This document shows positions 4,509 to 64,000 of a stretch of DNA of 64,000 nt, in pieces. Positions within the stretch are counted from its first letter, which is position 1. Every line of letters starts with the position of its first letter. This stretch comes from Bacteroides sp. (GTDB lineage Bacteria; Bacteroidota; Bacteroidia; Bacteroidales; Muribaculaceae): NCBI GenBank assembly GCA_014802265.1, contig JAAVCP010000028.1, positions 1-64,000 on the forward strand, given 5' to 3'. A program made the position numbers and the translations under genes. Below the pieces are notes generated by a model. It did no database searches. It was not told the DNA's origin and saw nothing but the letters and a program-made list of their open reading frames with translations.

Positions 4509-4569
4509 AATCAAGTTCTTAACTCTTAATAAAATAGAAAAAAATCCGGTTTAAATATTTTTTGAACCA

Positions 4570-4604: not shown

Positions 4605-4686
4605 CATCGTGAAAATCAAAGAAACATCGGGTATTTTTCACAATGTATTAATTTATATAAATAGCTGATAATAATAAATATATACT

Positions 4687-4776: not shown

Positions 4777-4784
4777 TCTTTATT

Positions 4785-6332: not shown

Positions 6333-6368
6333 TAAGCCTGTACAGATAAATATGACAGCATAGAAAAG

Positions 6369-6407
6369 ATTGGCGACACTCAGTATCTAATCTTGAGTGC
6401 CGCCAAT
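6369..6407 (+). terminator. Intrinsic terminator hairpin
   Basis: ATTGGCGACACTCA (6369-6382) pairs with TGAGTGCCGCCAAT (6394-6407) with one mismatch and an 11-nt loop, followed by TATTTTT. It sits between two convergent genes and can serve the plus-strand gene. Confidence 0.6.
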
Positions 6408-6413
6408 TATTTT

Positions 6414-8294: not shown

Positions 8295-8308
8295 AATAAT
8301 CGTGTGCC

Positions 8309-19986: not shown

Positions 19987-22900
19987 TGTAATTCTGCTTC
20001 GCGTGTTGAAAGGATGGGTTGTACGATGGTGTTTGCTTCCTTATCTTTTGAAAGCATAAAGAGCCGGCGGTATGAGAGCGGTCGATGTGCCTTTGGAGAT
20101 GAGTTCACAATAAATATGCCCCGTTGATTGGCGAAATTCAGTATTCCCTGGATATTTTCGTCGGCAAGACGCCCGATCTCGTCCATCATGCAGTGAAGTC
20201 GGAAATCCCCTCCTTGTCCTGCGCGGTTCTTGAATACACTTATAAGGAGAATATTAATGATGGCTTTTACCAGTATATCCGTACCCTCCGAACCGATAGA
20301 CCTGATATTCTCCACCCAGTCCGTCATATTGTCATTTTCCTGAATCCTGAATTTCAATGCGAAAGTCTGCTCCAAAGAAAGTTTCTTTAACTCTGACGCG
20401 GTTTGGAGTGCGTTCGCGAGGGATTTCAGGTACTTGATTGATTCTTTATTGAGGTCCGTATGCTTATCGGTGGAGAAGAGATTGACCTCACCCAGTTCGT
20501 ACTGATTCGCATTCCAGAAGTCTGTTATGTTCTGGAGTTGCATTATGATGGGCATCGTGCTACGGTCAAGCCTTAGCTCAATGTTCCGGATAACTCCGGC
20601 AAAGGTCTTTTTCTCAAAGTCATGGTTTATGGCTTTGACGAGTCTGACTATCTCGGATTCATGTCCTAAAAGGATATTGAAATCAGACGCAGCCCTTGAA
20701 AGGATATCCCGGTAAAGATTGCTCGTTACTTGTTGGAATTCCTTTATCTTGTGGTTGCTGACGAAATCCTCCAGGCTATCTGCATAGCGATGGTAGTCTT
20801 CGAGTGTGTCGAAGACTGTAGGGAATTTGAAGGTATTGTTTGCCGAAAAGCGCTTGCGGAATTCATTGGTTGTCTCCTTAAGTCTGTCAGATAGTTTATG
20901 GATATCGACTATCAGTGCTTGGATACTCGATATAATAGCAATGCAATCCAGTTCTGTATGTATAAGGGTACATTCTTTAAGCTCAGGTGGGCATACTTTT
21001 GATGCAGTGAACTCATCCGCCTGCTGTTTTGACTCCATGACCCGATGACAGGATATACGAAGTAAGACTACGGCTTTCTCCTCTTCCTGTCTCTTTAGGT
21101 TATACCTTTGGTAACGGTCTTCATATTTCTTTTGTAGGTTGGTTAGATTGTCATCAAGCATCTTTCGGTTGGTTTGCATCTGAGGTACATGATCAAGTAG
21201 CTCACTGCAGATTTTATGATAGACAGCGATATGATCCCTTTCACCGTCAATGCGATCTATAGCTATGGAAATTTCAGCTATTTCCTTCTTTGTCGTGTCG
21301 AGCATACGGATATCTGCGCCTAACTCCTTGAGTTCAGTCACTTCATCCTTTTCAAGTTGTTTTAATCTTGTAGCATGCTCCTTAGTGTATTCGGTCGCTT
21401 CTTCGTCGAGTGACGCCAGCAAATTGTCTTTTCTGGTCCTATCGGCTTTCTCTTCATTGGAGATTGTCTTATTGACCTTACGCAGTTCGCCATCGCATGT
21501 GCTGTCGAGGTTTTTTCGTTCTTTGGATAGACTGTCTATCTTAGATTGTAGCTCATGGATCTCATCATCGAAAGTCTTTAGTATATCTTCAAGATATCTC
21601 CTCTCTTCCTCTTTGATTTTCTCCAGGTGGAGCGACTCTTCTTTTAACCGTGATTGATTTATAAGAATTCTCTGGGACTGTTTGTCGATTTCAGTTTGGA
21701 CTGATTTCATCTGGTTTCTGATTTCCTTCCCAGCTTCGGCGATACGTTTCTGAGTCTCTTCTCGAATTTGAATTATGTTGTTTGACAATGATTGGATTTC
21801 TTTATCAAGAGACTTGACGGACTCCTTTATCATTGATGGGGTGCGCACATTTTTCTCGATAGAATAGAGATCAAGGCTTATACCGAAGATGGTATCGGTT
21901 TCGCTGTCAGTAAGCCGGGGACTGAGGTTCTGAGAATAAAGCACGCTCTTTTCATCGGCTATCTTGCCGATAGATTTCTCCCAACCCACTACATTATTGT
22001 CGAGCCATTCGCATAGTGATCCTTGCGCTCTTTTGAGAAGATACAGTTCCTCTTGCCGTCGGGATTCACGCTGTTGGATGTCACTTTCAATATCCTTGAT
22101 CTTTATGGTAGACTCAGCCTCTATCTCGCGGCATTTGAGTTCCAGTGCATTACTTAAGGCATCTATATGTTTTTCTTCTTTCAGCCTGGTTTCGGTGGAT
22201 TGATGGATTCTATCTTCAGTCTCGGTGATTTTTCGTTGGGATGCCTCGATATCATGCTTTCGGGGAGAGGATACGGCGGTCTTTGCTCGCTGTTCCTTAT
22301 GGTCCATCAGGCACTCTCGCAATGAATTGAGCGTTTCGTCGATTCCTGTTGTCTGAATCTTGAACCTGTTGCGTATTTCTGATTCAAGCCCCGATTTCCT
22401 CTTCATCCTCTCCATCTGGCGATTATTGAAATCGCTGATGATATTACTTTCTCTTCCCTTTAAGCATTGCAGATATTGCTCTTGGTCAAGATTGATTCGG
22501 TCGCGCAGCATTCCATACTTATCAGAGATGGAGTGGTGGCTCGATGTTAGTTGGGCGAGAATACGCTCTTTCTGTTCTTTTTGCAGTTTTAGACCGTCCA
22601 GTGTGGCTGCCCGCTCGATCATCTCTTCGATGCCTATGCGATGATATTCTTTCTTTTTTGAGGAGGCTTCCTTAAGTTTATTGTCAAGTACGGCTATTTG
22701 GCCGTCTAATGTCCTTCGCTCCTTATCATATTCATTGGTCAAGTGCTGTATCTTATTATCCAGCTTACTTATCTCCTCTTCCTTTTTGGCAATTTTGCTT
22801 CGTAGTGTTGGAATGTCACGTTCTGCCTTCTTCATAGCATAGCTGAGCATTCCGCATTGTTCGAGCAAGGAGAATCTGGCAGCCTTTATATCGTGTGAAG

Positions 22901-23669
22901 TGGCGATGAGTCTGTCAGCATCCCGACGTGTCTCAACGATGCCTTGGCGGTTCTTTTCTGTCCAAAGGGAAATATCTCTGTGTTCCTCATTGAAATGAAT
23001 GAGTTTTGACCGGAAGAAATTCAGGTCGACGGCGATTTCCTCGTCTTCTCCTGTGATGCTGTTGATGATGATATTTTTGATGAATCCCGCATCCACTCGC
23101 TCGTTGAGGAAAACGTTTTGTATGATGCGTGGTATGTTTTGGTATCGTTGGCTCCTGAGCAGATAGTATTTCAACAAGTCTTTGCTTAGGTGCGCGCTAC
23201 GGTTTCCATACAGTATATCAAGATATTCCAATCGTCTATCTATGATTTTACTGACATCGATTCCGAAATTCCGGATACGTTGTGCTAAAGTCGCCCGGTC
23301 CGTGACCACAGTTCCCAGGCTATCGACAAACCAGTCTTTGGAGTATGGCGCATCTACGAAACGGAAAGCGGCTCTATTGTGATGTCTGAAAAGGATGATA
23401 GAGAAAGGAGGTTCCTCCTCTCCGCGCGATACTTCGTAGATTATATATGAAGATAGGTCAGAGACATAGAAATCGTCAAATCCCTGCTGCCCCTGTGGTC
23501 TGATGCCGAGTTTCTCTTTACGACAGTTATAGAAAAAAAGGAGTGCGCGGAGGAGAGTAGTCTTGCCTACACCCTGTGTTCCTGTGAAATGCACATTGCC
23601 GTCCATTGCCACTTCAGCATATCGGATGTGTGCGCTGTTGATGAATATTATTTTATTCAGGTGTCTCAT
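19983..23669 (-). CDS. jetC: JetC, SMC/MukB-like ATPase of Wadjet
   Basis: 1228 residues. The N-terminal ATPase half has Walker A GTQGVGKTTLL (30-40) in the MukB-like 'RHLNKIIFINSAHIRY' context. Long coiled coils (about 270-480 and 600-900) flank a less regular central region. The C-terminal half ends with LHCMMDEIGRLADENI (Walker B with D and E) and the FIVNSSPKAHRP segment. The complex is expected to extrude loops on small circular DNA and, with JetD, cut plasmids. The start overlaps jetB by 17 bp and the stop overlaps the jetD start by 4 bp. No lesion is seen. Confidence 0.9.
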   Translation of the reverse strand: MRHLNKIIFINSAHIRYAEVAMDGNVHFTGTQGVGKTTLLRALLFFYNCRKEKLGIRPQGQQGFDDFYVSDLSSYIIYEVSRGEEEPPFSIILFRHHNRAAFRFVDAPYSKDWFVDSLGTVVTDRATLAQRIRNFGIDVSKIIDRRLEYLDILYGNRSAHLSKDLLKYYLLRSQRYQNIPRIIQNVFLNERVDAGFIKNIIINSITGEDEEIAVDLNFFRSKLIHFNEEHRDISLWTEKNRQGIVETRRDADRLIATSHDIKAARFSLLEQCGMLSYAMKKAERDIPTLRSKIAKKEEEISKLDNKIQHLTNEYDKERRTLDGQIAVLDNKLKEASSKKKEYHRIGIEEMIERAATLDGLKLQKEQKERILAQLTSSHHSISDKYGMLRDRINLDQEQYLQCLKGRESNIISDFNNRQMERMKRKSGLESEIRNRFKIQTTGIDETLNSLRECLMDHKEQRAKTAVSSPRKHDIEASQRKITETEDRIHQSTETRLKEEKHIDALSNALELKCREIEAESTIKIKDIESDIQQRESRRQEELYLLKRAQGSLCEWLDNNVVGWEKSIGKIADEKSVLYSQNLSPRLTDSETDTIFGISLDLYSIEKNVRTPSMIKESVKSLDKEIQSLSNNIIQIREETQKRIAEAGKEIRNQMKSVQTEIDKQSQRILINQSRLKEESLHLEKIKEEERRYLEDILKTFDDEIHELQSKIDSLSKERKNLDSTCDGELRKVNKTISNEEKADRTRKDNLLASLDEEATEYTKEHATRLKQLEKDEVTELKELGADIRMLDTTKKEIAEISIAIDRIDGERDHIAVYHKICSELLDHVPQMQTNRKMLDDNLTNLQKKYEDRYQRYNLKRQEEEKAVVLLRISCHRVMESKQQADEFTASKVCPPELKECTLIHTELDCIAIISSIQALIVDIHKLSDRLKETTNEFRKRFSANNTFKFPTVFDTLEDYHRYADSLEDFVSNHKIKEFQQVTSNLYRDILSRAASDFNILLGHESEIVRLVKAINHDFEKKTFAGVIRNIELRLDRSTMPIIMQLQNITDFWNANQYELGEVNLFSTDKHTDLNKESIKYLKSLANALQTASELKKLSLEQTFALKFRIQENDNMTDWVENIRSIGSEGTDILVKAIINILLISVFKNRAGQGGDFRLHCMMDEIGRLADENIQGILNFANQRGIFIVNSSPKAHRPLSYRRLFMLSKDKEANTIVQPILSTREAELQ

Positions 23670-24198
23670 CTTCTTCAGTGAATGCTATAAGTTCTACCAT
23701 ATCTTCGAGATATCTGTATGCGGCGGCTACCTGATATCTTTGAGAGACATCATCGAGAAGCTCTATATATCCTTGGCGCGAAAGCTCCTCCATGAGTCGG
23801 TCGCATATTTCATCATTGCGTATCTTGCTTTCATAAAGTGATTTCGCTTTTTCCCGCAGTTCGATGTCTGAATCCATCTTCACCATCAGGTCTGCCTTAA
23901 TGAATGTGAATCCGGGTCCTAAGGCCGGATCCCATGCCTTGAGAAAATCAAGGATGTCTATCCAGTGACCAAACCTTTTCAGTTTATCCACGAGAGTGGT
24001 CTTTGATTCCTTTCGTGAAAAGTAGAAGTATCCGTTACCTTCTTCAAGTATGAATCCAATCTGTGTGAAGTATGCAGAGTATTCCTCTTTATGGTCGTCA
24101 AGGTCTATGAAGATATTTCGAGTCCCCTCGTCAACGCTGTTGGAAGATATGAATCCTCCTCGATTCAATCTGTCAAAAACCTACTGTATGTATTTCAT
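23653..24198 (-). pseudogene. jetB: JetB (MukE-like) with nonsense codon at position 6
   Basis: The natural start is ATG 24198, overlapping the jetA stop as ATGA. Codon 6 is TAG (24181-24183): MKYIQ-stop-VFDRLNRGGFISS. A CAG to TAG change is the simplest explanation. The remaining 175 residues are intact and fit the DUF4194/MukE-like winged-helix subunit (IFIDLDDHKEEYSAYFTQI; SRKESKTTLVDKLKRFG). JetB bridges the JetA kleisin and JetC heads. The TTG at 24168 could allow reinitiation 13 bp after the stop. The gene overlaps jetC by 17 bp. Confidence 0.8.
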
Positions 24199-25394
24199 GG
24201 GATATTGTAGATCATTGGGTAGTTTATATTGCCGTCTGTCCGCCAGTCTTCTGTGATCCGAAGACGCGAATGATGGTTGAGAATTATCTCGGTATAGTAT
24301 TCCACTTTCTGCTCCAACTCCTTCGGACTATCGTAAGGATAGTATTTCACGAATGAATAGAGATCCTTGGAAGAGGCGAAGAAAGCTTCAGCGATCTTGT
24401 CGGTATCGACGAAATCCTCAATCCTGTATCCAGGGTTGAGATCTTCGGCTTTCAAAGGGGGCACCACTAAGGCATTGGGCTTCTTTCGTTTTGATACGGA
24501 GGACTGAGCTGCTGATATCACATCTATACCTGTATCCGTGTCTCGTAAGAAGGAAAGGGATATTTTGGTGGTGTAGTTAGAGGTAGTCTCAAACAGCTGA
24601 TGGGAGCATCCGTTAAGAATCTGGCATACTGTAGTGGTCTTCTCCCATGTAAGCTGGTCTTTTAGGTACTTAAGTTTCCTTATGTGCTTAACTTTCCTGT
24701 TGTGGGCATCAATCTGGTGGAGGTAGTCGCGTATGGTGTGCTGCAGTTCAATTAGGAAGTGAAATACATCCTTGAATCGCAGTCTGACATCAATTGAAAT
24801 CCGTGTGATTATCTGATCCGGCGTCATGATGTCAAGGATATCCTTGCGTTCTTCAAGCAAACGTTCCGTTTGGCGGATAAGGGAGGCTATACTTTCTAAG
24901 GTGGACTGATACTCCTCAAGTTTCTGACGCTTTATCTCATAGTTGCGTTCGTGTCGGTAAGTATCGTTGATGACTCGCTTAAGTTCAAGGGTCTTAGCCT
25001 CAGCCTGTATGGAGATATTACGTAGAGATCGGATTATCTTATTGATGTATTTTCGCTGGGAATCATAATTTGATCGCTCTTTGAGATAAAAATCTATATT
25101 GTTCTTAAGTTGCTTTAGGTTTTCTTCTACCGTCGTGCTTGTAATGTTCTCGTTGAGACGGAGAATCTCCTCGAAAAAGTGTTGGTAAGTCTCTTCCAAT
25201 TCGAGCATTTCTCCTTCCTGACGCACGATTCCGTAGTCGATAAGCAGGCGCAGGTTGCGTTCGTGGTTGACGAATTCCAACGCGTCCTCATACCGGAAAT
25301 TATATTTCTGTCGGGCCTGAAAAAGCTCGTGGAGAAGCTTCCGCTCTGTGTGCAGGCGGCTTAGCAGTTCCGTAAGATTTAAGAACACTTTCAT
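24195..25394 (-). CDS. jetA: JetA, MukF-like kleisin subunit of Wadjet
   Basis: 399 residues. An N-terminal winged-helix-like region (LTELLSRLHTERKLLHELFQ) is followed by a helical/coiled middle (about 110-260) and a C-terminal segment with DTDKIAEAFFASSKDLYSF, the layout of MukF/JetA kleisins. It should connect the two ATPase heads of JetC. It begins 34 bp after the stop of a DUF4143-type ATPase with no consensus promoter in between, so readthrough from the promoter at 26814-26844 may express the whole set. The Wadjet type is not assigned. Identity rests mainly on the JetBCD context. Confidence 0.8.
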   Translation of the reverse strand: MKVFLNLTELLSRLHTERKLLHELFQARQKYNFRYEDALEFVNHERNLRLLIDYGIVRQEGEMLELEETYQHFFEEILRLNENITSTTVEENLKQLKNNIDFYLKERSNYDSQRKYINKIIRSLRNISIQAEAKTLELKRVINDTYRHERNYEIKRQKLEEYQSTLESIASLIRQTERLLEERKDILDIMTPDQIITRISIDVRLRFKDVFHFLIELQHTIRDYLHQIDAHNRKVKHIRKLKYLKDQLTWEKTTTVCQILNGCSHQLFETTSNYTTKISLSFLRDTDTGIDVISAAQSSVSKRKKPNALVVPPLKAEDLNPGYRIEDFVDTDKIAEAFFASSKDLYSFVKYYPYDSPKELEQKVEYYTEIILNHHSRLRITEDWRTDGNINYPMIYNIP

Positions 25395-25428
25395 AGTTGT
25401 ATATGGGGTACTATTTTCATAACTAATT

Positions 25429-26751
25429 TCAGCTTAATTCAGATAATAAATCTTCTAATAAGAAAGGTATTACCCCAACATACGTCACCCCGTCTTCATC
25501 AGTCCATAATTTGGAATTGCCATCAACAACTATGATCTTTTTAAAGAAGTCTCCTGTATTCCGTAGTGAAAACGTTTCCTGAGCTTTCTTTTCCGGAGTG
25601 TCTACATGTAGTGCTGATTGGATATACACTTTATTATTACCCAGATTGACTACGAAGTCTATCTCATATTGTGACGATTTTCTTTTGCCGTCTATTACAC
25701 GGCTCACTTCCACGATTCCGACATCAACGGAGTATCCTCTAAGAATCAGTTCGTTGTAGATCAAATTCTCCATAAGGTGTGATCTTTCTTGTTGGCGGAA
25801 GTTCAGACGAGCGTTTCTGAGTCCGAGATCCATGGCATAGTATTTCTGAATAGTATCGAAATACTTCCTACCCTTGACATCCCATCTTCTGGCACTCTGG
25901 AAGAGATAGGAGTCTTCCAAAAACTGGAGATAATTTTTAACTGTATTATGGGAGGGTGTCTTTCCCAAAGCAGATCCGGCTGTATTTGCTAATCTATTGG
26001 AGTTTGTCAGTGATCCTATTGCAGATGACAAGGCATCTACAAGAGGACCCAGTATGCTATTGTCTTTTAGTTTGTAGCGTTCTACTATGTCTTTAATGTA
26101 TACGTTAGTGAACAATCCTTGAAGATACTTGCGTTTCTCCTTTTCATCAGATTCAAGAACAGCTAAAGGCATTCCTCCATACATCAAATATTCTTCAAGC
26201 GCATCGGATTTGTCCTTATCTGAAACAGTGATGAACTCAGAGAATGAGAGGGGATATACCTTTATTTCCGATCCTCTGTCTCTGAAATTGGTCACTATAT
26301 CTTTCGAAAGCATTTTTGAGTTGGATCCAGTCACATATATGTCAAGATTTGGACGCCTGAGAAGATCGTTAAGTATGTCATAGAAAGTAGTATACAACAT
26401 TTCACGGTCTTCCTCAGGCACCAAATTTTCATCTATCTCATCATTCTTAATCTTATATGATAACTGTATCTCATCAATAAAGATATAGAAATTTTGGGTT
26501 ATATCCTGAGTCTGTTGCATTATATGATCATATAGCAGATTGGGATTACGGAATTTTATGTCTGACTTGCGATCCAGGGCTATTTCGATAAAATCATTTG
26601 GTGACACTCCGGTTTCTATCAGCTGCCTTTTGAATAGGGTAGACAGCAGGAATGATTTGCCGGAACGTCTGATTCCAGTGATGATCTTAACTTTGCCGTT
26701 CCATTTTTTTGCCAACAACTGATTGAGGTAATGTTTTCTTTCTATAACCAT
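25429..26751 (-). CDS. AAA+ ATPase with DUF4143 domain
   Basis: 440 residues from the ATG at 26751 (MVIERKHYLNQLLAKKW). Walker A is GIRRSGKS (26-33), Walker B is FYIFIDEIQ, and a sensor-like VTGSNS follows. The C-terminal DUF4143 region (about 220-440) contains the PD-(D/E)xK-like strand SSQYEIDFVVNLGNNKVYIQ. The frame extends to 26844, but the promoter (TTG-N20-TAAATTTG, 26814-26844) lies inside that extension, so the start at 26751 is preferred. It is co-directional with and 34 bp from jetA. A 40-nt hairpin sits at the predicted transcription start. Function of this family remains unclear. Confidence 0.85.
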   Translation of the reverse strand: MVIERKHYLNQLLAKKWNGKVKIITGIRRSGKSFLLSTLFKRQLIETGVSPNDFIEIALDRKSDIKFRNPNLLYDHIMQQTQDITQNFYIFIDEIQLSYKIKNDEIDENLVPEEDREMLYTTFYDILNDLLRRPNLDIYVTGSNSKMLSKDIVTNFRDRGSEIKVYPLSFSEFITVSDKDKSDALEEYLMYGGMPLAVLESDEKEKRKYLQGLFTNVYIKDIVERYKLKDNSILGPLVDALSSAIGSLTNSNRLANTAGSALGKTPSHNTVKNYLQFLEDSYLFQSARRWDVKGRKYFDTIQKYYAMDLGLRNARLNFRQQERSHLMENLIYNELILRGYSVDVGIVEVSRVIDGKRKSSQYEIDFVVNLGNNKVYIQSALHVDTPEKKAQETFSLRNTGDFFKKIIVVDGNSKLWTDEDGVTYVGVIPFLLEDLLSELS

Positions 26752-26773
26752 AATCAATCGACATTCATATTTA

Positions 26774-26813
26774 CACTGACAAAATTGTTGCATTTGCAAT
26801 CGTTTTGTCAGTG
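26774..26813. repeat. 40-nt nested palindrome at ATPase transcription start
   Basis: CACTGACAAAA (26774-26784) and its exact reverse complement (26803-26813) enclose an inner TTGCA-TT-TGCAA palindrome. It begins immediately downstream of the -7 box, at the predicted transcription start, which is an operator position for repression. Confidence 0.6.
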
Positions 26814-26844
26814 CAAATTTAGTTGAATTTCCTGAGATATACAA
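26814..26844 (-). promoter_or_regulatory. Promoter of DUF4143 ATPase (and possibly jetABCD)
   Basis: On the minus strand: TTG (26844-26842), a 20-bp spacer and TAAATTTG (26821-26814). Confidence 0.6.
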
Positions 26845-27902: not shown

Positions 27903-30101
27903 GTGAGGACTTATTTTCTTACATTATTCTTGGTTGCCGTCTCTCTCATCGGATACGGCAACCAACGTGTCGGTCTTGTGCTGAGTGGCGGGGGTGCCAA
28001 GGGAGTAGCCCATATCGGAGTAATTAAAGCTCTCGAAGAGAATGATATCCCAATCGACTATATAGCGGGCACCTCTATGGGGGCTATCATTGCCGGACTT
28101 TATGCAAGCGGGTACTCTCCTGATGAAATGCTTCAATTAGTAACATCACAAGATTTCCAATATTGGAGCAGTGGTGTTATCGACCCTGAGTTACGGGTCT
28201 ATATAAGCACTCCCGAAGAATCACCGGCTATGGTAAGCTTTCCCATCGGCAATGACTCAGTAGCAAAGAGTGTACCTCAGTGTCTTATCGGGCCGAATGC
28301 CATGAATTTTCCATTTATGAGACTATTCTTAGCCCAAACTGTAGCTTGTGATGGCAATTTTGATAAGCTGTTTGTACCGTTGCGCACTGTAAGTTCCAAC
28401 CTTGAGGCTCAACGACCTGAGATAGCACGTTCCGGCGACCTTACTACTGCCATACGTGCATCAATGTCTATCCCGGTGGTTTTCTGTCCTGTTGAAATCC
28501 GTGACACTCTTCATTATGATGGGGGAATATTTGATAATTTTCCTGTTGATGTGATGCGTGAGGATTTTCATCCGGATATCATTATTGGTTCTGACGTGCA
28601 TACACCCAATCCTCATCCGGTGCCTAATATAGTCAATCAGGTTGAAGATCTTGCCGTGCGTCCACAATCATACGAACTTCCTGCCGAAGAGGGGATTAAA
28701 ATACACATGAACCTCTCAAAATATAATATACTTGATTTTGCACGCGGAAAGGAAATTTTTGAAGTAGGCTATCGTAAAGGTCTTTCCATGATTGACAGTA
28801 TTTCACAACGGATAACCGCACGCCGTCCGGCAACTGAAGTAGCATATCGAAGGACTGAGTTTAAAAACAGCCTCCCTGACATAGAATTTGAAAAAGTAAT
28901 CTGTGACGGCGGCACAACAAAACAAAACAACTATATCGCATCCCAATTCCAGTCGGGAAAATCAGGCAAAATCTCAATAGAAGATGCTCGTCTTGGATAT
29001 TACAGTGCGATATCTTCCGAGCAGATTGCCAATCTGAATATCCAAGGAAAGATTAATGTCACCGGTGGTCTTGATCTGCAACTCAAAGCTTATCCACGCT
29101 CTCCATGGAGCATTGATTTAGGAGCATATATTACAACTACAACCACCAACATGCTATATGCAGCCCTTAACTATCGAACTCTTAAAGCAAAATCAATAAA
29201 TACTGCCTTACGAGGCTGGGTGGGGATTAACTATATGGCATCGGAACTGCTTGCATCAATCCGCTTTGGTGGAGAGCGTCCTTACAGTCTTGGATTGCAA
29301 GCTGTGGTGTCGCGCCATAATCTGAATATAGGTGAAAAATATTTCTTCCAGATTCACGATGCCCGCTATGTCAAGAACTTTGAGGGATTTGGAAGAGCCG
29401 ACCTCATTACTGTGGCAACGGGTACTCACGGGATTGCCCGCCTTCAGGCAGGGTATGGCTATATCTCTTCTCAACTCCACCATCCCGAGGGTGGCAACCT
29501 AAAGATTAACCATCAACTTGGTCAGCTTGCAATGCGATATGACTATAATACTTTAAACGCTATAATGTATCCCCTATATGGTTTCGCCGTACACAGTTCT
29601 TTCATGGGGCTTATCGGTAAGCATCATGAAAAATGGCTTCAACTTGATACAGAAGTGACTAAATATTGGAAACTTACCAGACGCTTTTCATTAGGTGGAT
29701 ACGGACATTTGCTTGCCTCAGGACGAAAGATTCCGCGAAATATCGAGACCGCATATATTGATGCCCCGGCATTTATGCCCACACCCTCTTGCTTTAATGC
29801 ACTGAACCCTTCGTTTCGGGCATATTCATTCTTGGGGATGGGAATTAATACGGTATGGTTGCCCTTCGGCAATGTGCAACTCCGCGGTTCGTTCAATATA
29901 TTTGTCCCATGGCAAAGAATCGGAAGTGACCGGAAGGTAGATAGCTGTGAGTTTCTCGGGCAGCTTGCAGCCGTGTTCCATATAAAGAAAGTAATGGCAA
30001 GTGCTTATGGGAACTATCGCACAGGTAATGACAGGGACAAGGGTTTTCATGCCGGAATATCAATCGGGGTTCTTCTTCCAGCTCCTCAGTTTCTACGCTA
30101 A
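27903..30101 (+). CDS. Patatin-like phospholipase with outer-membrane barrel
   Basis: 732 residues starting at GTG; an in-frame stop two codons upstream excludes an earlier start. A signal peptide is followed by the patatin domain: oxyanion GGGAKG (29-34), nucleophile GTSMG with S58, and catalytic Asp in DGG (D206). A POTRA-like segment (about 310-400) and a C-terminal beta-barrel of the BamA/TamA type follow, as in PlpD (type Vd autotransporters). The patatin domain is probably displayed at or released from the cell surface and hydrolyses phospholipids. The C-terminal aromatic (Phe/Leu-Arg) suits a barrel end. Monocistronic. Confidence 0.9.
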   Translation: MRTYFLTLFLVAVSLIGYGNQRVGLVLSGGGAKGVAHIGVIKALEENDIPIDYIAGTSMGAIIAGLYASGYSPDEMLQLVTSQDFQYWSSGVIDPELRVYISTPEESPAMVSFPIGNDSVAKSVPQCLIGPNAMNFPFMRLFLAQTVACDGNFDKLFVPLRTVSSNLEAQRPEIARSGDLTTAIRASMSIPVVFCPVEIRDTLHYDGGIFDNFPVDVMREDFHPDIIIGSDVHTPNPHPVPNIVNQVEDLAVRPQSYELPAEEGIKIHMNLSKYNILDFARGKEIFEVGYRKGLSMIDSISQRITARRPATEVAYRRTEFKNSLPDIEFEKVICDGGTTKQNNYIASQFQSGKSGKISIEDARLGYYSAISSEQIANLNIQGKINVTGGLDLQLKAYPRSPWSIDLGAYITTTTTNMLYAALNYRTLKAKSINTALRGWVGINYMASELLASIRFGGERPYSLGLQAVVSRHNLNIGEKYFFQIHDARYVKNFEGFGRADLITVATGTHGIARLQAGYGYISSQLHHPEGGNLKINHQLGQLAMRYDYNTLNAIMYPLYGFAVHSSFMGLIGKHHEKWLQLDTEVTKYWKLTRRFSLGGYGHLLASGRKIPRNIETAYIDAPAFMPTPSCFNALNPSFRAYSFLGMGINTVWLPFGNVQLRGSFNIFVPWQRIGSDRKVDSCEFLGQLAAVFHIKKVMASAYGNYRTGNDRDKGFHAGISIGVLLPAPQFLR

Positions 30102-54654: not shown

Positions 54655-55920
54655 CTATGAAAAATCTGTCACTGCTCCGATAAACAGAATTATGCCCGAT
54701 GTCTTTTCTTGAATTAAATATATAAAAGGTCGGTTGAATACAAGCGGCTCCAACGGAACAGGATCAGGAGAAGCACTGTCAATCATTCCAGCCATACTGG
54801 CGGCAGCACCTTCCGTACCAGATTCATCTATAATTACTTTTGAGGCATGTAGAAATAATTTCAAAACAGGATCACTACCATCTTCTACAATAGAATTAAA
54901 TCCATATCTCACATCACATGCTTTACTTAATCCCATCTTTTTCAACACCTCAATCATATCTGCCTTATTACTACTCTCAAACTTCGGGAACAACAGACTG
55001 TGGTGATATGTTTTACGGAATGTCCCGTTAAGTTGTGTAAGATTATCATTGTCAAGACATTCTAATAAAGGGGTATGATTAAATTTGTCTGACGGTAATA
55101 TAGCCGTCATATAGAAACTCCCATTTCCGTATGGCAATCTCACAGCCTTTGTCCCGTCTTCCGTCTCACCATATTCAAACTCTTCTTTATACATGAAATC
55201 TACTTTGGAAAGACTGCCGTTAAGATTTCGGAAATCATTTTTTATAGTCTTCTCTTTATAAAACTCCTCACTCCATTCACCCTTGAAATAGATGGTATTA
55301 ATAAATGCTGAGGTTATGTCATTAAGTGGTCGCTCTATAAAATTCTTTATCATGCCGTTAGTGAAAGTCTCCACAAATTTATTTATAGCCTCTTTACCTT
55401 CTTCCCCTGAAGGAGTCTGAGCATAAACAGATGCAAACATTGACTCGGCAATCTTGTTTTTAAAGTCATCCCGAATTATCATATTTGGATTGTGCCAATA
55501 TGAATTGGTGAAGACACAAGTAGTAGCCGGATCAAGATATGAAATATTTGAGAGCATTACGCGGTTGAAGTTATTCAATCCGGCAAGTCCTTCACTTCCA
55601 TTCCCAAACCCTAACAATGTCAATAATTCATCACGTACCTCACCGTCATCACCGTTGGCAAGCATCGATATCACAGCAGAAATACTTACAGGGGAAAGAC
55701 ATATATTGCCAGGGAACTTGCTTTCGGTTGTTTTCAGCAATTCCAAAGCGAATTCATTCACACAGTCTATGTTGCTCCTTGTCAAGTCAGTTATTGAGCC
55801 TACGGGAGAAGGATTGACAGGACATGTCACGATTATTTTTTCCGGCTCCTTTACATCGCTGGAGCATGCTCCGGCAATAAATATAAGCATTGAAAGTCCG
55901 ATTAATTTCAATTTATTCAT
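54655..55920 (-). CDS. Serpin (serine protease inhibitor) lipoprotein
   Basis: 421 residues. Lipobox IAGAC (C19) makes it an envelope lipoprotein. The serpin fold shows FINTIYFKGEWSEEF, MTAILPSDKFNHTPLLECL and FNRPFIYLIQEKTSGIILFI. The reactive-centre hinge ESGTEGAAASM is of the inhibitory type. By hinge counting P1 falls at or near Ser, suggesting elastase-like targets. Gut Bacteroidales serpins are thought to block host or bacterial proteases. It heads the predicted operon with the ECF sigma factor. The upstream region (55921-56000) lacks the housekeeping -7 box, compatible with ECF control. Confidence 0.92.
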   Translation of the reverse strand: MNKLKLIGLSMLIFIAGACSSDVKEPEKIIVTCPVNPSPVGSITDLTRSNIDCVNEFALELLKTTESKFPGNICLSPVSISAVISMLANGDDGEVRDELLTLLGFGNGSEGLAGLNNFNRVMLSNISYLDPATTCVFTNSYWHNPNMIIRDDFKNKIAESMFASVYAQTPSGEEGKEAINKFVETFTNGMIKNFIERPLNDITSAFINTIYFKGEWSEEFYKEKTIKNDFRNLNGSLSKVDFMYKEEFEYGETEDGTKAVRLPYGNGSFYMTAILPSDKFNHTPLLECLDNDNLTQLNGTFRKTYHHSLLFPKFESSNKADMIEVLKKMGLSKACDVRYGFNSIVEDGSDPVLKLFLHASKVIIDESGTEGAAASMAGMIDSASPDPVPLEPLVFNRPFIYLIQEKTSGIILFIGAVTDFS

Positions 55921-58363: not shown

Positions 58364-58695
58364 TGCTTTTTACTTTTGCAAATATCGCAATTATTTCACG
58401 ATTATAAAAATAATTGACATTAAAATTCATTGTCCTACTCACAAGAAAGAGTTTTACACACTATGAATAAAATCCGTACAAGGAAATATCAGAAATATCT
58501 ATAAATAATTCTAAGTCTATAAAACCGGTAACTCCTAACTAATATCCCTCAACACAATAATAAGGATACTGTTTCATTGGGGATGTCCTCTTTCAGACAC
58601 ACTCAATGAAACAGTATCGGCTCTTGAGAGTAAAAGAATACTATCCAATTTTTAGAAACTATGCCACTCCAATTACTGTTATCATTACCACTAAT
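58364..58695. other. Intergenic region with long-loop hairpin
   Basis: 332 bp, A+T-rich, no gene. It holds one perfect inverted repeat at 58565-58618. Confidence 0.5.
58565..58618 (-). terminator. Hairpin ending the methylase-kinase operon
   Basis: GATACTGTTTCATTG (58565-58579) and its exact complement (58604-58618) flank a 24-nt loop, 78 bp beyond the stop of the last operon gene. The long loop is unusual for a terminator. Confidence 0.5.
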
Positions 58696-59301
58696 TTATC
58701 CCCTAATTCGTTTTTGTAGATATTCTTTAATTTTAATTGCATCCTCATTATCAAGCAACTGTTTTATCGTGGAGTGATACGCTTGATCATAGATAGATAT
58801 ACGAATAATTGGTATGCCTGTTATAACAGAATAAATATCCTTTAAATAATCATAGAATGCCCGTTGTTTCCAACGGGAGGGACCATTACCTGAAAAATTT
58901 CCGTTTGGTCCACTTTCTCCGAATTGTTTATCAGCAGAAGGATTGCTCCAGCGTTTTTGTGACGTGGGGCATTTATATTCATACGCCAAACAATACTTAC
59001 GATATTGCTTTACATCAAAATTATTATATTTCTGATAGAGTGGAGCATCGAGTGTTATTAATCTATAACGATTAAAATGATTCTCCTCGTCAAGTTCAAT
59101 AATAAATGATTCCATGTCAATATCCCATTTCCCTGGGTTAACTGGTGGAACATCTAAGATTCCTCCTAAAGCTTTATATACTTTACATACCTCATCAAAT
59201 TTATCAGAGGATTTGATAAGGGCTAATGTGGGTCTTACATGCGAACCAGGCTTATAAATCCGGTTACAAATTGACTCTAAATATTTCTCTTTCTTTCCCA
59301 T
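58696..59301 (-). CDS. Hypothetical protein with nuclease-like motif
   Basis: 201 residues from the ATG at 59301, 13 bp after the preceding gene's stop; a longer frame back to 59439 would overlap that gene by 125 bp and is not preferred. The segment GKWDIDMESFIIELDEENHFNRYRL has an Asp followed at about ten residues by ExDE, the spacing of a PD-(D/E)xK-type site, and HFNRYR and YEYKCPTSQKRW are distinctive. The C-terminus (YDYLKDIYSVITGIPIIRISIY) resembles a nuclease-fold end. I cannot assign a Pfam family with certainty. It is the third gene of the locus and a candidate effector. Confidence 0.6.
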   Translation of the reverse strand: MGKKEKYLESICNRIYKPGSHVRPTLALIKSSDKFDEVCKVYKALGGILDVPPVNPGKWDIDMESFIIELDEENHFNRYRLITLDAPLYQKYNNFDVKQYRKYCLAYEYKCPTSQKRWSNPSADKQFGESGPNGNFSGNGPSRWKQRAFYDYLKDIYSVITGIPIIRISIYDQAYHSTIKQLLDNEDAIKIKEYLQKRIRG

Positions 59302-59314
59302 GATCAATACAATA

Positions 59315-60457
59315 TTAGCGTTTACGCTTAGGGTTATCACTTGAATTTTTATTCTCTTTAAGCATCCAAAAATCTTTAAGATTTTTCTCTTTATCTGGAT
59401 GTTCTCTAATAAAATTATTATACCATAAGATAAAATCACATAGCCCCATGGTTAGACAGCGAAGCATGTAAGGAGACTTACCGACAAGAGGAAGATACTT
59501 ATCAAGATTCGTTGTCAATTCTTCATCCGCACTTGAAGTATGAACAGCTCCTCCGGTTTGAAATATTGCTGCTTTTAGCCATTGAGAGAGTTGTTTAGGT
59601 AACAGTGGTTTACCTGTTATACGGTTCACTTTATCCCAAAATTTTTTCTCGCTATCAGTCAGAATTTCAATATTATCAGGAATTTCTTGACCAAGGAATA
59701 AGCTACTCCAAGAAAGATTAACATCATCTTTATTACCCTTATTAATTAAAATTGTTGGCAGAATCCCCATATCCACCATGTGACGGAAAATATTTTCAAG
59801 GGCTTTACGGAGATCAACGTATCGGCGATTATAGTCTTCATTTGATATTACACTAAAATGTATTGGCTCCAGTAAAGGCATAAGATAATATCCTACTTCA
59901 CTGGCTAAGTCTAAATTATCCAATGCCTTGAAAACATCCGGATAAAGATCGTATTCAATTTGCAATTCATGTCGGTAACACTTGACATGGTTCTTAATCC
60001 TATCAAACAGGATATGACGTTCGTGTTTTTTAGTATCTTTAATGGTAACCTTTCCATTCTTTGAATAGAAAGGACGGTTAACTAGGCGAATCCAGTCCTT
60101 GTCCCATTCATTAGTATCTGGAATCAAATTACGAATATCATCTTCACCTTGACCTGAAAGAACATACCAAGGTATAGTTCTATTCTTACGCGACGCAAGA
60201 TCCATAATCTTAACGAATACATGACTAAGAAATTTGTCTGCCATATCTGCATCATCTTTACGATAACGACACTTTGCATCCAAGATGATAGCATCCCAAC
60301 GATCGTAATTATTCTCAAGTTCAATTTCAGCCTCTTCCCAACAAGGGAATGGGTAGAGTTCAATTCCTGCCATCATGTCTGCTTCATTAGGAAATGAAGC
60401 GATAATTCTTGGGTCATTCTCAACCCATAATACTTGTATGTATTTATGATCACGCAT
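59315..60457 (-). CDS. Response-regulator-like protein
   Basis: 380 residues. Residues 1-150 follow the receiver fold: IQVLWVENDPRIIASF (acidic E13/D15), WDAIILDAKCRY with the phospho-acceptor Asp at D60, WYVLSGQGEDD (Ser), and RLVNRPFYSK with Arg in place of the conserved Lys before Pro-Phe. The C-terminal 230 residues are helical and unrecognised. No DNA-binding motif is obvious, so the output may be protein-protein. It starts 14 bp after the methylase-kinase stop, which makes it the natural phosphotransfer partner of that protein. Confidence 0.75.
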   Translation of the reverse strand: MRDHKYIQVLWVENDPRIIASFPNEADMMAGIELYPFPCWEEAEIELENNYDRWDAIILDAKCRYRKDDADMADKFLSHVFVKIMDLASRKNRTIPWYVLSGQGEDDIRNLIPDTNEWDKDWIRLVNRPFYSKNGKVTIKDTKKHERHILFDRIKNHVKCYRHELQIEYDLYPDVFKALDNLDLASEVGYYLMPLLEPIHFSVISNEDYNRRYVDLRKALENIFRHMVDMGILPTILINKGNKDDVNLSWSSLFLGQEIPDNIEILTDSEKKFWDKVNRITGKPLLPKQLSQWLKAAIFQTGGAVHTSSADEELTTNLDKYLPLVGKSPYMLRCLTMGLCDFILWYNNFIREHPDKEKNLKDFWMLKENKNSSDNPKRKR

Positions 60458-60471
60458 AATAATTATGATTA

Positions 60472-63462
60472 TTAGTTGTTAACTATGTCCGTTTTTTCAA
60501 AGGTTAGTTTATAAATCACAGGAAATTCCGCTTCAGGTTTAGAAATAACTTCAACCGAACCTAACCCTTCCATAAGAGATTTAATCTCAAATCCACCTTG
60601 ACCGGAATGAAGAGTTTCATCTAAACCCTCTTCATTTAAAGCAGTAGAAAAGCCGCTCATTAGTACATCTGAACAGGATACCCCTTCTTTCAATGGAAGA
60701 CCATTGTTGGCTATGGTAATGACGATATTTCCGTTTTCTGACATCCAATCAAAACGAATTTCGTTATTCTTGTGATCTAAACAAAAGCCATGCGCCATAG
60801 CATTTGCTACAATATTATCGAATATACGCTCCAATAATCTTTCTGGAGCATAGAATATCCTTTGGATAGCTTGAAACTTATGTAGTGTTTGGCTTGTCTC
60901 GTCACAAAAATCTTGAATTGAAGATTCATTGCCAATGTTAACCATTCTAACAGATGGTGTTGAATTAGTGGTTATGTAACCATTAATAAACTGATGTGGA
61001 TTTATGGCTATAGGTTTGCCCCAATCTGATTTTTCAAAACGTAAAGCTTCAACCTGACGTTGGAGCGTGGAGATGGAATATGCTATGCTACCCATTAAAT
61101 CTTTAACTGGCATTGGATTAATTCTTCCAATTATATCTGAAAGATTTAATTTGCCGCCTTTCATTTCTGTAAAAAAATTGAGTTGTTCCCAATTTGAGGA
61201 TAAGGCTGCTAATGTTTGAATCATGGCATGTCGTGTACTACGAACTTCTCTTTTATGGATTTCATAAGCCTTTTGAATTTCTTCTGAAAGTGTATCCCAC
61301 TCAGCGGCAATAATACAAATAATAAATTGGTCACGCGATTCCGCATTTACAATATTTAGTAGATTTATTCTTGACAATTCAAGTTGGTCAAGAGCAGGTA
61401 TAATAGCTCCTTCTATTTGGGCTTTAATTTGATTTAAAATCATATTGGGGGGGATTTCATCTGTTTTCTCTGCGAGAATATCGCATGCCAAAAGGGCAGC
61501 AAGATATTTTGCACTGACCCCTTCCCTTGGCTGAAGTATTTTCATAGTACCAGCAGGAAAGGCAACCTTCCCAACAAACCCATCAGTGTAAACCGTTCTA
61601 AGCTTACCATTAGCTAAAGTTAATATGACAGCACTATCTTCAAGAACCACACAGCTTAAGTTACTTGAAATATGCTCATTCTCAGTCGCAGTAGGTACAA
61701 ATGGCTTATAGTGCATTGCTTCTGGAATAGAAGTATTAGTAATATAATATTCCGGCTGAATATCATCGCATGTTAATTCTGGAACAGAAGTTGCAAGTTC
61801 AGAAAGAGCGATTCCATCTCCCGGTTTGGGTGTGAGATAGATAGAAGGTCTAAGATCTGACCCAATAAGTTCGGAATATACAATAGCGGCACCAGTTTGA
61901 TTTTCTGTTATATCTTCTCCATTTTGAGTATCTTCAATCTCAAATTCAAATTCGTCTATAAAACGCTCTAAATCAAGTGTGGTGGTTCGATAAATACTTT
62001 TTGCATATTGCACATAGTCAGTTGCATTGCCAAATTCTATTTCGTGATTCCTGCCATCTTTAGAGAGAACAATTAGAGCCTGTGGTACAGAGGTGCCCAT
62101 AAATATATTAGAAGGAAGCATAATAACACTTTTGATGGCGTGGTCTTTGATAAGCAATTCACGCAATTGAGTAGCAGAGTTATTCTTTGTATATAAGAAT
62201 CCTCCTGTCACTATACATACCATTTTGCCTCCATCTTCAAGCTTGGCATAAAGCCTACTTACGATGTCGGTAATTTCTTGCCCCTCTTGGTATAGATATG
62301 CCGGTGAGGCTATAATTGCGGGATACTTTTTAGCCGAATGTAATTCAATAAAAGAATCTCCTAATGTGATATCAACTCGTTTTTCCGACTGATGTGCAAA
62401 TAAACGAATTTGTCCAATTGCCCAACTTATAGGGTTAATTTCTTCTCCAACCACCCGGTTATGAAGCTTTAGTCCGTATGAAGCGGCACCTGCAAAGGGA
62501 TTATACACAGTCACGTCTTCCGAAAATGATGCTACATGACACATCAAGTCTGTTACTTCCTGAGGCTGAATAAATCCATCTGCACGTTGTCTTGCCATAT
62601 CATCAGAGACCAATACTTGATCAACTACTTTATCAAGATTCTCAGTAAGAAAAGCTATTTCCTTTTCATTCAATATGTTTGACTGAAATTCATATTGTCT
62701 CATTGCGGTCAGAACCTCAAGGTTTGCATGATTGCCAGCTGCAAGATGGTATAATTTAGTCATCAATCCTAAGCTTGGCTGCGGATGAAATAGGGATGCC
62801 TTACGTGTATAATGCCTCACAAGATCAACTACTTCAAATGGCTGAGAGATAAGTTTGTGGATCTTATTATCATGCTTTTGGGCAACCACTATAAGTTGTT
62901 CCTGCTCATTGATCGTTGGAATTGAGATCTTACCAATATTACGCACGATCTCCTCAGGAGTAATTTTTATTTCTCCAAATTGAGCATCACATCCAACTAT
63001 GCCTACATTATTCCAATTATAAACGTCATTATATCTATTTATCCGACGTTTAAGTAAGCGATCCCATTCTCCAGACTTACAGCAATAGAAGATATATTCC
63101 GGTGAAGAATATAGCGAGAGTCTGAATGCCATAAGGTATCCGTAATCTGGGTGTTTTTCATATTCACTTGGAATATATATAGGGATATTGTTGGTAGCAA
63201 GTAAATATACCATCTTAGCTTGTTTGGAAGTGATAAGAAGTGTAGGCATTGTTAGCTTACGCATTCCTTTCTTAGTTTTAAGATATTCGGAATCGAGAAT
63301 AGATGGTTTATAGTATATTGAATTCCAATCTGTAGCAAAGTACTTAGGATTAAAAACGTTTCCGAAAGCGTCATCAGCGGTTTGCTTCTCCCAATCTGCA
63401 GGAAGAAGAATATCTGAAATATTTAGAGAATGAAATGCGGAAGTTGAGTTGGTGTTAAACAT
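60472..63462 (-). CDS. N6-methyltransferase-like / histidine-kinase fusion
   Basis: 996 residues. A 300-residue N-terminal region is of unknown fold. Residues about 300-470 form an HsdM/N6_Mtase-like core with VYNPFAGAASYGLKL (SAM motif I, 321-330 for NPFAGAASYG) and IIASPAYLY (motif IV, SPAY at 386-389 rather than NPPY). A linker follows, then REVRSTRHAMIQTLAAL with a candidate phospho-acceptor H745. The last 120 residues are a HATPase: IFDNIVANAMAHG (N box, about 880), ITIANNGLPL (G1) and HSGQGGFEI (G2). It likely senses DNA or SAM-related signals and phosphorylates the downstream response regulator. I know no characterised system with this exact fusion. Confidence 0.8.
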   Translation of the reverse strand: MFNTNSTSAFHSLNISDILLPADWEKQTADDAFGNVFNPKYFATDWNSIYYKPSILDSEYLKTKKGMRKLTMPTLLITSKQAKMVYLLATNNIPIYIPSEYEKHPDYGYLMAFRLSLYSSPEYIFYCCKSGEWDRLLKRRINRYNDVYNWNNVGIVGCDAQFGEIKITPEEIVRNIGKISIPTINEQEQLIVVAQKHDNKIHKLISQPFEVVDLVRHYTRKASLFHPQPSLGLMTKLYHLAAGNHANLEVLTAMRQYEFQSNILNEKEIAFLTENLDKVVDQVLVSDDMARQRADGFIQPQEVTDLMCHVASFSEDVTVYNPFAGAASYGLKLHNRVVGEEINPISWAIGQIRLFAHQSEKRVDITLGDSFIELHSAKKYPAIIASPAYLYQEGQEITDIVSRLYAKLEDGGKMVCIVTGGFLYTKNNSATQLRELLIKDHAIKSVIMLPSNIFMGTSVPQALIVLSKDGRNHEIEFGNATDYVQYAKSIYRTTTLDLERFIDEFEFEIEDTQNGEDITENQTGAAIVYSELIGSDLRPSIYLTPKPGDGIALSELATSVPELTCDDIQPEYYITNTSIPEAMHYKPFVPTATENEHISSNLSCVVLEDSAVILTLANGKLRTVYTDGFVGKVAFPAGTMKILQPREGVSAKYLAALLACDILAEKTDEIPPNMILNQIKAQIEGAIIPALDQLELSRINLLNIVNAESRDQFIICIIAAEWDTLSEEIQKAYEIHKREVRSTRHAMIQTLAALSSNWEQLNFFTEMKGGKLNLSDIIGRINPMPVKDLMGSIAYSISTLQRQVEALRFEKSDWGKPIAINPHQFINGYITTNSTPSVRMVNIGNESSIQDFCDETSQTLHKFQAIQRIFYAPERLLERIFDNIVANAMAHGFCLDHKNNEIRFDWMSENGNIVITIANNGLPLKEGVSCSDVLMSGFSTALNEEGLDETLHSGQGGFEIKSLMEGLGSVEVISKPEAEFPVIYKLTFEKTDIVNN

Positions 63463-63493
63463 GAGTTGAAAGATTTAGATTTGTTTTACGCTG

Positions 63494-63501
63494 CAAAATT
63501 A
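63494..63501 (-). promoter_or_regulatory. -7 element of methylase-kinase operon
   Basis: On the minus strand: TAATTTTG followed by C, 31 bp upstream of the ATG at 63462 and overlapping the WYL gene stop. No TTG at ideal spacing, which suggests a regulated promoter. Confidence 0.5.
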
Positions 63502-64000
63502 CAAGGAACTTTTGCAGTCATTCTTCAAAAGTCCATAATTTTTACAACATTCTTTAAGAATAGTGGTGATCTCGTCTTTAAAAGATTGTGGTTCTAAGAC
63601 CTCCACATCTTTACCAAAACTGAGAATGGTAGCTGTCAATTCTCGATTCAGTAATAAATTAAGGGTAACAGTTCTATTAGAATCATTTTTTTGTTGTGAT
63701 GGATGAATAGGTTTGGCAATTACATAAGGATATCTGTGTTCACTAAATCGGAGTACAACTTTTTCCAAATACCTTTCCTTTGGAATAGTAACTCCAATCA
63801 CATCGTAGAAATAATCGTCAGGATCTATGATAAGGTTATCTTTAATAAACTGAATATCTGTAGGTTCAATATCTAGAATACGATCTAATGGAAATACAGA
63901 TATTGTATTATATTCACATGCTAATCCGAGCAAATACCACCTATTATTATATTGTTTCAAGTAATATGGGTGAATTATAGTTTCATACGGTGACTTATGA
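63499..64000 (-). CDS. WYL-domain regulator, 5' end outside window
   Basis: C-terminal 167 residues of a WYL protein: reading continues in frame to the window edge (SPYETIIHPYYLKQYNN then RWYLLGLACEYN), so 63960 is not a true start. The WYL core segment (PYYLxxxNxRWYLLGL, ISVFPLDRILDIEPT) and the WCX-like extension (VVLRFSEHRYPYVIAKPIHP; TLNLLLNRELTATILSFGKD) are clear. WYL regulators of this shape (BrxR/CapW-like) repress anti-phage operons. The next gene starts 36 bp downstream with a promoter and a palindrome inside the 3' end of this gene. Confidence 0.85.
   Translation of the reverse strand, partial: HKSPYETIIHPYYLKQYNNRWYLLGLACEYNTISVFPLDRILDIEPTDIQFIKDNLIIDPDDYFYDVIGVTIPKERYLEKVVLRFSEHRYPYVIAKPIHPSQQKNDSNRTVTLNLLLNRELTATILSFGKDVEVLEPQSFKDEITTILKECCKNYGLLKNDCKSSL
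63508..63532. promoter_or_regulatory. Candidate WYL operator
   Basis: ACTTTTG (63508-63514) and CAAAAGT (63526-63532) are exact inverted 7-bp arms with an 11-nt spacer, located just upstream of the -7 box of the methylase-kinase promoter. The position suits repressor binding; the assignment is inference. Confidence 0.4.

Follow-up and report, generated by a model that had tools for sequence, protein, structure and literature searches.

Dedicated controllers of immune operons and two-component systems are both known kinds of bacterial regulator. We describe a locus whose new element would be a sensor derived from a restriction enzyme. It occupies positions 58,696 to 64,000 of a 64,000-nucleotide stretch (hereafter the window) of contig JAAVCP010000028.1, from a Muribaculaceae genome (Bacteroides sp., GCA_014802265.1), and consists of genes for a WYL regulator, a 996-amino acid (aa) methylase-histidine kinase fusion, a receiver protein and a 201-aa DUF7255 protein. 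Detocs is reportedly a two-component phage defence system that works by phosphorelay, with a TPR sensor kinase, a receiver and a phosphorylase-type effector. Phosphorelay is common to Detocs and the present set, but neither TPR nor phosphorylase is among the Pfam matches of the four window proteins, and an earlier sequence-only reading of the window (made without database searches) was right to hold that the Detocs genes differ. MADS is defined by the mad2 methylase together with other mad genes; the mad2 model matches the methylase stretch of the fusion (1.6e-13), and no other mad family was found among the four window proteins. Type I restriction-modification (R-M) systems resemble the locus in that the sensor is built from HsdM-like and HsdS-like parts and in that HsdM and HsdS genes follow 13 of 58 related receiver genes. 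They differ in that the fusion has a changed motif IV and a histidine kinase core, and the window has no HsdS or HsdR alongside.

The closest concept is CapK/CapS (PMC13373217, EMBO J 2026), a kinase-repressor pair found upstream of diverse immune operons. CapK is described there as a kinase of helix-turn-helix (HTH)-STAS-GHKL architecture that phosphorylates a serine of the repressor CapS, itself a STAS-winged HTH (wHTH) protein, whereas the input here is HsdM/HsdS-like and the partner resembles an aspartate receiver; Pfam found no STAS domain in any of the four window proteins, even at E ≤ 1. BrxR/CapW WYL regulators (PMC9122601) also stand next to a range of defence systems, Type I R-M among them (34/210), but they are one-component regulators, and the word kinase is absent from that text. 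A Schlafen RNase with a minimal histidine kinase and a wHTH, from BREX-type loci (PMC12839542), shares the fusion of a histidine kinase domain to a defence protein; what is joined to the kinase there is an RNase effector and no methylase or specificity part, and the passage names no receiver. Dedicated control of Type I R-M is represented by the small repressor RptR (PMC12255303), and a histidine kinase and response regulator acting via CRISPR-Cas (PMC8523701) set a precedent for two-component control of defence, although the passages from neither source describe a restriction enzyme-derived sensor. ArsRS control of hsdM1 (PMC10810217) is a precedent for two-component control of a defence gene, and the passages of PMC7641849 do not describe this fusion. 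Among the matches listed in open-licence PubMed Central, no description of a methylase-histidine kinase fusion of this kind was found, a coverage outside which most subscription papers and preprints fall and which is hence no proof of absence.

We propose that the locus carries a two-component front end that arose from a Type I restriction enzyme and controls swappable defence payloads, a reading we consider probable, though far from assured. What is conserved is the front end of kinase and receiver, with a sensor that derives from R-M and is probably inactive, whereas the payloads change; the four genes do not form a fixed system. More tentatively, and as a serious possibility, the family may form a class of immune sensors in which a decayed Type I enzyme (arranged S-M-S) serves as the input of a histidine kinase, phosphorelay runs to interchangeable payloads and the N-terminal half is exchanged between alleles. 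The proposal is built on gene order, domain content, residue conservation, linkage, the different payloads beside related front ends and presence on mobile elements.

All four genes lie on the minus strand in the order WYL, fusion, receiver and 201-aa protein, separated by 36, 14 and 13 bp, in agreement with the sequence-only reading of the open reading frames (ORFs). The 996-aa fusion (60472..63462; it and its parts on the minus strand) comprises an S-like half, an HsdM-like probable pseudo-methyltransferase, a second S-like half, a DHp-like helix and an HATPase, as assigned with Pfam and a profile of 50 homologues. N6_Mtase was matched at E=1.1e-19 (residues 296-508) within the HsdM-like domain, at about residues 250-540 (61843..62715). 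HATPase_c (residues 874-976; 60535..60843) was matched at E=2.4e-4 with 22.0 bits, below the 26.4 cut-off, but the call is secure because 49 of the 50 homologues match HATPase_c at E ≤ 0.01; at the same threshold 29 match N6_Mtase and 15 Methylase_S. The methyltransferase core and C-terminal HATPase seen in the sequence-only reading both held up, the latter through its homologues. Compared with solved chains, the homologue profile (n=50) matches HsdM (3lkd, 2.9e-45), HsdS (3okg, 2.8e-13) and a histidine kinase (9m08, 2.5e-8), in that order, and a profile of 12 stand-alone HsdS proteins picks up, in many members, an S-like segment lying between the methylase and kinase parts. The kinase part has the features of a two-component kinase, namely a conserved histidine in the DHp-like helix and the N and G boxes of the HATPase: the candidate phospho-acceptor His745 (61228..61230), Asn887, Gly921, Gly954 and Gly956 are invariant in 50/50 homologues. 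This alignment (A4) excluded 437-448-aa kinases lacking the methylase, the truncated members of loci L056 and L063, and L011 and L016 (loci are numbered with the prefix L throughout).

The methylase part has fared differently from the kinase. Of the stand-alone HsdM proteins, 19/19 (including three duplicates, so 16 distinct, and one, L037, on the other strand) carry the motif IV pattern [ND]PP[FYW], versus 3/51 fusions, one of the three (L061) off-site. The window protein reads SPAY at residues 386-389 (62296..62307), where the neighbouring HsdM proteins of other loci carry NPPF/Y, and motifs I and IV are both unrecognisable in many fusion members. Because the kinase residues are kept in all 50 homologues while the motif IV pattern is mostly lost, the kinase appears strictly constrained, whereas the methylase seems to have mostly degenerated, to varying degrees. 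The window methylase is likely inactive, and the methylase half is probably a non-catalytic sensor; an active methylase was set aside as the default with motif IV changed in nearly all members. On a tree of methylase domains, the fused domains and the stand-alone HsdM proteins fall on two sides of one branch (98/93), as would not be expected had the fusion been copied recently from a neighbouring HsdM. The tree holds 29 fusions (30 of 51 gave a profile hit and 29 were used) and 16 HsdM proteins, and contains several long branches and gappy rows.

The 380-aa response regulator protein (59315..60457, minus strand) combines a divergent receiver, at about residues 1-150, with a C-terminal half in which no DNA-binding motif is recognised. 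Pfam gave no family above cut-off in the window protein, and Response_reg matched 0/55 homologues; having failed in all 55, Pfam was replaced as the receiver test by profile-profile comparison with controls. Compared with 18 ordinary receivers of the same genome, the profile reached 93.8% probability, and the N-terminal part alone reached 95.0%, with a score of 48.8, whereas 30 column-shuffled controls reached 16.9 at most. No residue of the active-site set is missing, with D/E13, Asp60 (the candidate phospho-acceptor, 60278..60280, minus strand), S/T101 and Lys133 each present in 55/55 homologues (alignment A3, excluding the near-copy L059, the truncated L064, and L011 and L016). A receiver next to the kinase, as first read from the letters, is thus upheld despite the silence of Pfam.

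A receiver alignment (A1) yielded 53 loci among 84,980 species genomes and no viral loci, and scans of genome and viral contigs with the single fusion protein returned nothing. By title, and leaving L037 aside, most loci are from Bacteroidota, the exceptions being L052 (Erysipelothrix), L060 (uncultured bacterium), L062 (Clostridia) and L071 (Oceanicaulis). The set is rare in the sampled genomes, the source genome being included in each sample: the fusion is present in 4/295 of the order and 5/99 of the family, and the receiver in 9/395 of the phylum. Linkage was counted with custom profiles over 58 receiver genes in 55 loci (L049, L060 and L068 counted twice), after dropping L027, L030, L056 and L066 as duplicates of L012, L013, L015 and L014, and L016, which is cut at a contig end. 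A kinase lies directly upstream of the receiver on the same strand in 58/58, and it is a full-length fusion in 51/58. In the reverse direction, the receiver adjoins the fusion in six of seven other genomes found via the fusion (L012-L016 and L084), the seventh (L086) being cut at a contig end. A WYL gene on the same strand lies within 5 kb in 41/58 and within 400 bp in 29/58. Three loci (L049, L060 and L068) have two tandem kinase-receiver pairs behind one WYL gene; the second kinase of L049 (437 aa) lacks the methylase while keeping the N-terminal half and the kinase part.

What lies beside the pair changes from locus to locus. HsdM and HsdS are directly downstream in 13/58, 11 of them with HsdR. 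By Pfam and PADLOC, other payloads are a NERD protein with a UvrD helicase (L028), DUF1848 with a helicase (L031), HAD/PRTase with DprA, ShosTA-like (L039, L040), AIPR (L061), NERD (L034) and HNH (L041). Between WYL and kinase there are YhcG (L048, L050, L054), AbiEii (L045, L060), Fic (L044) and DUF4062 (L046) genes, and YhcG precedes WYL in L055. The change is visible within one clade of nine fusions on the methylase tree (100/100), which includes Type I R-M (L012, L026, L013, L029), NERD-helicase (L028), DUF1848 plus helicase (L031) and the DUF7255 of the window, together with L032 and L033, which show no recognised defence gene. By our own reading of the neighbourhoods, a defence-type gene stands beside the set in 28/55 loci as a raw count that takes in R-M and DUF7255 and leaves out DUF4062. 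The set is also found on mobile elements. On the Myroides plasmid pFM-G13 it precedes the genes of a Type I R-M system, and a scaffold deposited as bacteriophage has it together with HsdM, a next gene and HsdR. This scaffold, which also encodes TraM, an integrase and a TraG-type coupling protein, is probably a conjugative element.

In the window, the plausible payload is the DUF7255 protein (58696..59301, minus strand), whose start at 59301 lies inside a 247-aa ORF (58696-59439). Its match to PF23913 is strong (E=2.2e-50, 170.8 bits vs a cut-off of 27), and D59, D70, the H74-F-N-R motif and R79 are invariant in five DUF7255 sequences. By inference from such residues the family may be nuclease-like; comparison with solved structures found no useful relative, and no paper naming DUF7255 was found in open-licence PubMed Central. 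DUF7255 is present in 5/198 genomes of the order. Of three of the four other sites, L084 has fusion, receiver and DUF7255, L085 has a WYL gene of the same family followed directly by DUF7255, and L087 has neither arrangement. Because it recurs after a kinase-receiver pair (L084) and after a same-family WYL gene (L085), DUF7255 looks like real cargo. It is also found on four Arthrobacter-type plasmid records, and in the one inspected no such module is annotated. At L085 (about 4126-9442), WYL and DUF7255 occur without kinase or receiver, and, by eye, the start of a 566-aa gene farther along resembles that of an ATPase. As a core component the 201-aa gene was rejected, the window being alone among the 60 loci searched in having it, with L084 later adding one case beside the pair. 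The idea that the four-gene set recurs as a system therefore survives for the kinase-receiver pair, often with WYL nearby and beside restriction or abortive infection-type genes, on a plasmid or with conjugation genes, and fails for the 201-residue gene, which is no standing member.

These features suggest a mechanism. A sensor made from HsdM with HsdS-like halves would probably have lost methylation and gained a histidine kinase core. Its S-M-S part most likely binds DNA or a restriction-type complex and would report a state, such as a restriction enzyme that is blocked, or DNA that is invading or lacks modification. Autophosphorylation of the kinase at His745 would follow, and the phosphate would be handed on to Asp60 of the receiver next to it. 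The C-terminal half of the receiver would then act with the WYL regulator to turn on the neighbouring payload, often Type I R-M, other defence-type genes in other loci, and DUF7255 in the window. Our confidence is greatest for phosphotransfer from His745 to Asp60, and falls in turn for sensing of DNA or a restriction complex, for payload control with WYL and for a role in defence. If the proposal is true, a restriction enzyme has been turned from executioner to alarm, recognising DNA as before and signalling by phosphorylation instead of methylating. This would explain how R-M-type recognition can be coupled to defence payloads of widely differing kinds, and would give a way into the control of Type I R-M upon entry into a new, unmodified host. 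Because, in gut bacteria, the pair often adjoins restriction enzymes or other anti-virus genes, its placement suggests a reusable alarm switch for bacterial immunity.

Several observations weigh against this reading. The profile of 12 stand-alone HsdS proteins gave no match on the window protein itself. The loss of motif IV is less complete under looser definitions: the count becomes 4/51 fusions once serine is allowed at the first position, two fusions have NPPL, PP is kept at the site in 16/50 aligned rows (with full NPPF in two, SPPF in one and NPPL in one), and L086, outside these sets, keeps NPPF. The general motif IV consensus is (D/N/S)PP(F/Y/W), from which the SPAY of the window is one residue away. 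Among the 55 receiver members, no DNA-binding HTH output domain is found in the Pfam matches at E ≤ 0.01, although such a domain is usual in two-component systems and not essential to them. The 58/58 linkage of kinase and receiver is partly built in, since the loci were fetched via the receiver. No same-strand WYL gene lies within 5 kb in 17/58, of which several are at contig ends, and WYL is on the other strand in L041, L071 and L072. Among the neighbours scanned, 27/55 loci show no defence-type gene, with many neighbours unscanned. Finally, the pair is not always linked to defence, because L057, L058, L059 and L064 have kinases of this family, 447-448 aa long, that are paired with a receiver among housekeeping genes and lack both methylase and WYL. 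The L057 kinase lies between a methionine synthase activation gene and LpxK (by Pfam), with similar gene sizes upstream in L058, L059 and L064; these kinases may be a relative outside defence.

The state of the window copy raises the first alternative, that it represents the last remains of a Type I R-M locus that was once regulated: HsdM, HsdS and HsdR would have been lost and WYL broken, with kinase and receiver as leftover frames beside an unrelated DUF7255 gene; we judge this somewhat unlikely. The C-terminal part of the WYL/WCX regulator lies at 63499..64000 (minus strand; WYL 2.2e-8, WCX 4.2e-11 by Pfam), its frame running on outside the window to contig position 64233, and an in-frame stop separates it from the N-terminal part, which is found farther upstream. 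The contig, of 194,891 bases, runs on past the window, so that the beginning of the operon is also available (the source genome, with 95.9% completeness and 5.6% contamination, is 4.47 Mb in 99 contigs). The stop is a TGA that lies beyond the window, at codon 76 of the stretch translated; it could be an assembly error. A WYL regulator in front of the set, as the sequence-only reading had it, was accordingly found by its WYL and WCX domains, with its frame interrupted in this genome. Regulators of the BrxR/CapW kind repress by binding ssDNA or an operator. Their arrangement of wHTH, WYL and WCX in a single frame is not present here, WYL and WCX being found and the frame cut by the TGA; we infer that the N-terminal part is a wHTH. 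The WYL homologues in L012 and L013 are 341 aa, and that of L012 has no strong match among solved WYL regulators (best E=0.0063, to a 'transcriptional regulator-like protein').

Besides this in-frame stop, a remnant would fit the lack of HsdM, HsdS and HsdR genes adjoining the window genes, which are present in relatives such as L012 and L013, and the lack of an XRE-like ORF upstream of the window WYL gene, where none was found. Such a small ORF precedes 7/50 WYL genes (L012, L013, L014, L016, L026, L029 and L089) and is 66-84 aa long, or 109 aa in L014; six have Type I R-M cargo and L016 is cut off at a contig end, while no match of this sort was obtained at further R-M loci, L011, L065, L070 and L073-L075 among them. 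These ORFs are reminiscent of R-M controller proteins, and the corresponding stretch looks disrupted in L028 and L031. Against a remnant, the window kinase and receiver frames are intact and keep their conserved catalytic residues, DUF7255 recurs in L084 and L085 like real cargo, the stop may not be genuine, and the argument applies to this one copy and leaves the family untouched. With WYL interrupted and restriction genes absent, the copy in the window seems partly decayed and may be either reduced or decaying.

A second alternative concerns the output, with the receiver acting directly on the payload protein or being itself a toxic effector, in a Detocs-like phosphorelay, instead of acting on transcription with WYL. 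The absence of a recognised DNA-binding domain from the receiver would suit it, as would the C-terminal half, in which R217 (55/55), E221 (52/55) and H306 (54/55) are conserved at positions that align with a DUF4145-like stretch at the HsdR N-terminus, and in which one member each of the 55 matches DUF4145 (E=0.005), OB_RNB and an S1/CSD-like domain. The resemblance to DUF4145/HsdR is suggestive at most, however, and not significant (probability 6.4%; score 22.7 vs a shuffled maximum of 22.6), and the frequent adjacency of WYL and kinase fits transcriptional control, so that we regard a direct-acting receiver as rather doubtful.

The S-like halves bear on what is sensed. The N-terminal half (residues 1-218; 62809..63462, minus strand) is variable between close relatives and gave a weak match to HsdS by hhalign (probability 15.7%; score 30.9 vs a maximum of 20.7 in 30 shuffles). 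The second half, which resembles a target recognition domain (TRD) (about residues 541-715; 61318..61842, minus strand; Methylase_S in 15/50 members), is not hypervariable, with 60.6% mean identity among seven close relatives. The alignments behind this mean identity and behind the weak HsdS match both include the N-terminal half of L028, which reads as repeat junk. In the closest pair, L012 and L026, identity is 94% for HsdM, 93% for HsdR, 95% for the receiver, 91% for the methylase part, 90% for the second S-like half and 99% for the kinase part, versus about 30% for the HsdS TRDs and 35% for the N-terminal half of the fusion; this is a single pair, and both records are metagenome-assembled. 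The N-terminal half of L026 is closer to its counterpart in L013 (47%) than to that in L012 (35%). Because identity there is 35% against 90-99% across the rest of the fusion, we read the N-terminal half as exchangeable, which suggests that it is swapped like an HsdS specificity and carries variable recognition.

A steady second half is also what might be expected if the sensor bound a fixed partner, as a decoy for phage anti-restriction proteins, DNA mimics that bind M-S complexes, and not DNA. A pseudo HsdM-S complex is indeed what inhibitors such as Ocr and ArdA bind. The N-terminal half, varying like the HsdS TRDs in the one pair compared, is a better fit to changing DNA targets, and we hold the decoy to be improbable. 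Very improbable is an active methylase paired with DUF7255 as endonuclease in a compact R-M unit: one operon does hold an N6_Mtase domain and a possibly nuclease-like protein, and SPAY is a single residue off the general consensus, a recheck of the motif having raised the odds slightly, but the motif kept by all the neighbouring HsdM proteins is gone from nearly all fusions while the kinase residues are invariant, and the receiver would be left unexplained.

Past the last gene lies a terminator-like inverted repeat (58565..58618, strand not assigned) with 23-nt arms that are 87% complementary. No tRNA was found in 20 kb beside the locus. In an empty-site comparison of stretches from five relatives beside the flanking 666-aa gene, the module was present in 0/5; L122 ends at a contig end, the gene order differs and no insertion edge could be fixed. 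Elsewhere in the family, a PIF1-like helicase is near 11 loci (L045-L050, L054, L055, L060, L035 and L036), whose genes in the WYL-kinase interval differ; the helicase probably marks a shared chromosomal site, possibly an insertion hotspot.

Other parts of the window hold further genes of possible interest. At 19983-26844 (minus strand), a 1228-aa DUF3584 SMC-like protein, itself without a PADLOC match, is encoded near a 471-aa protein that matches PADLOC PDC-S01 (2.5e-103), a possible second defence locus. A 732-aa patatin-like phospholipase is encoded at 27903-30101 (plus strand), its patatin part weakly matching PADLOC phospholipase effectors, and a serpin-family protein (6.2e-71) is encoded at 54655-55920 (minus strand).

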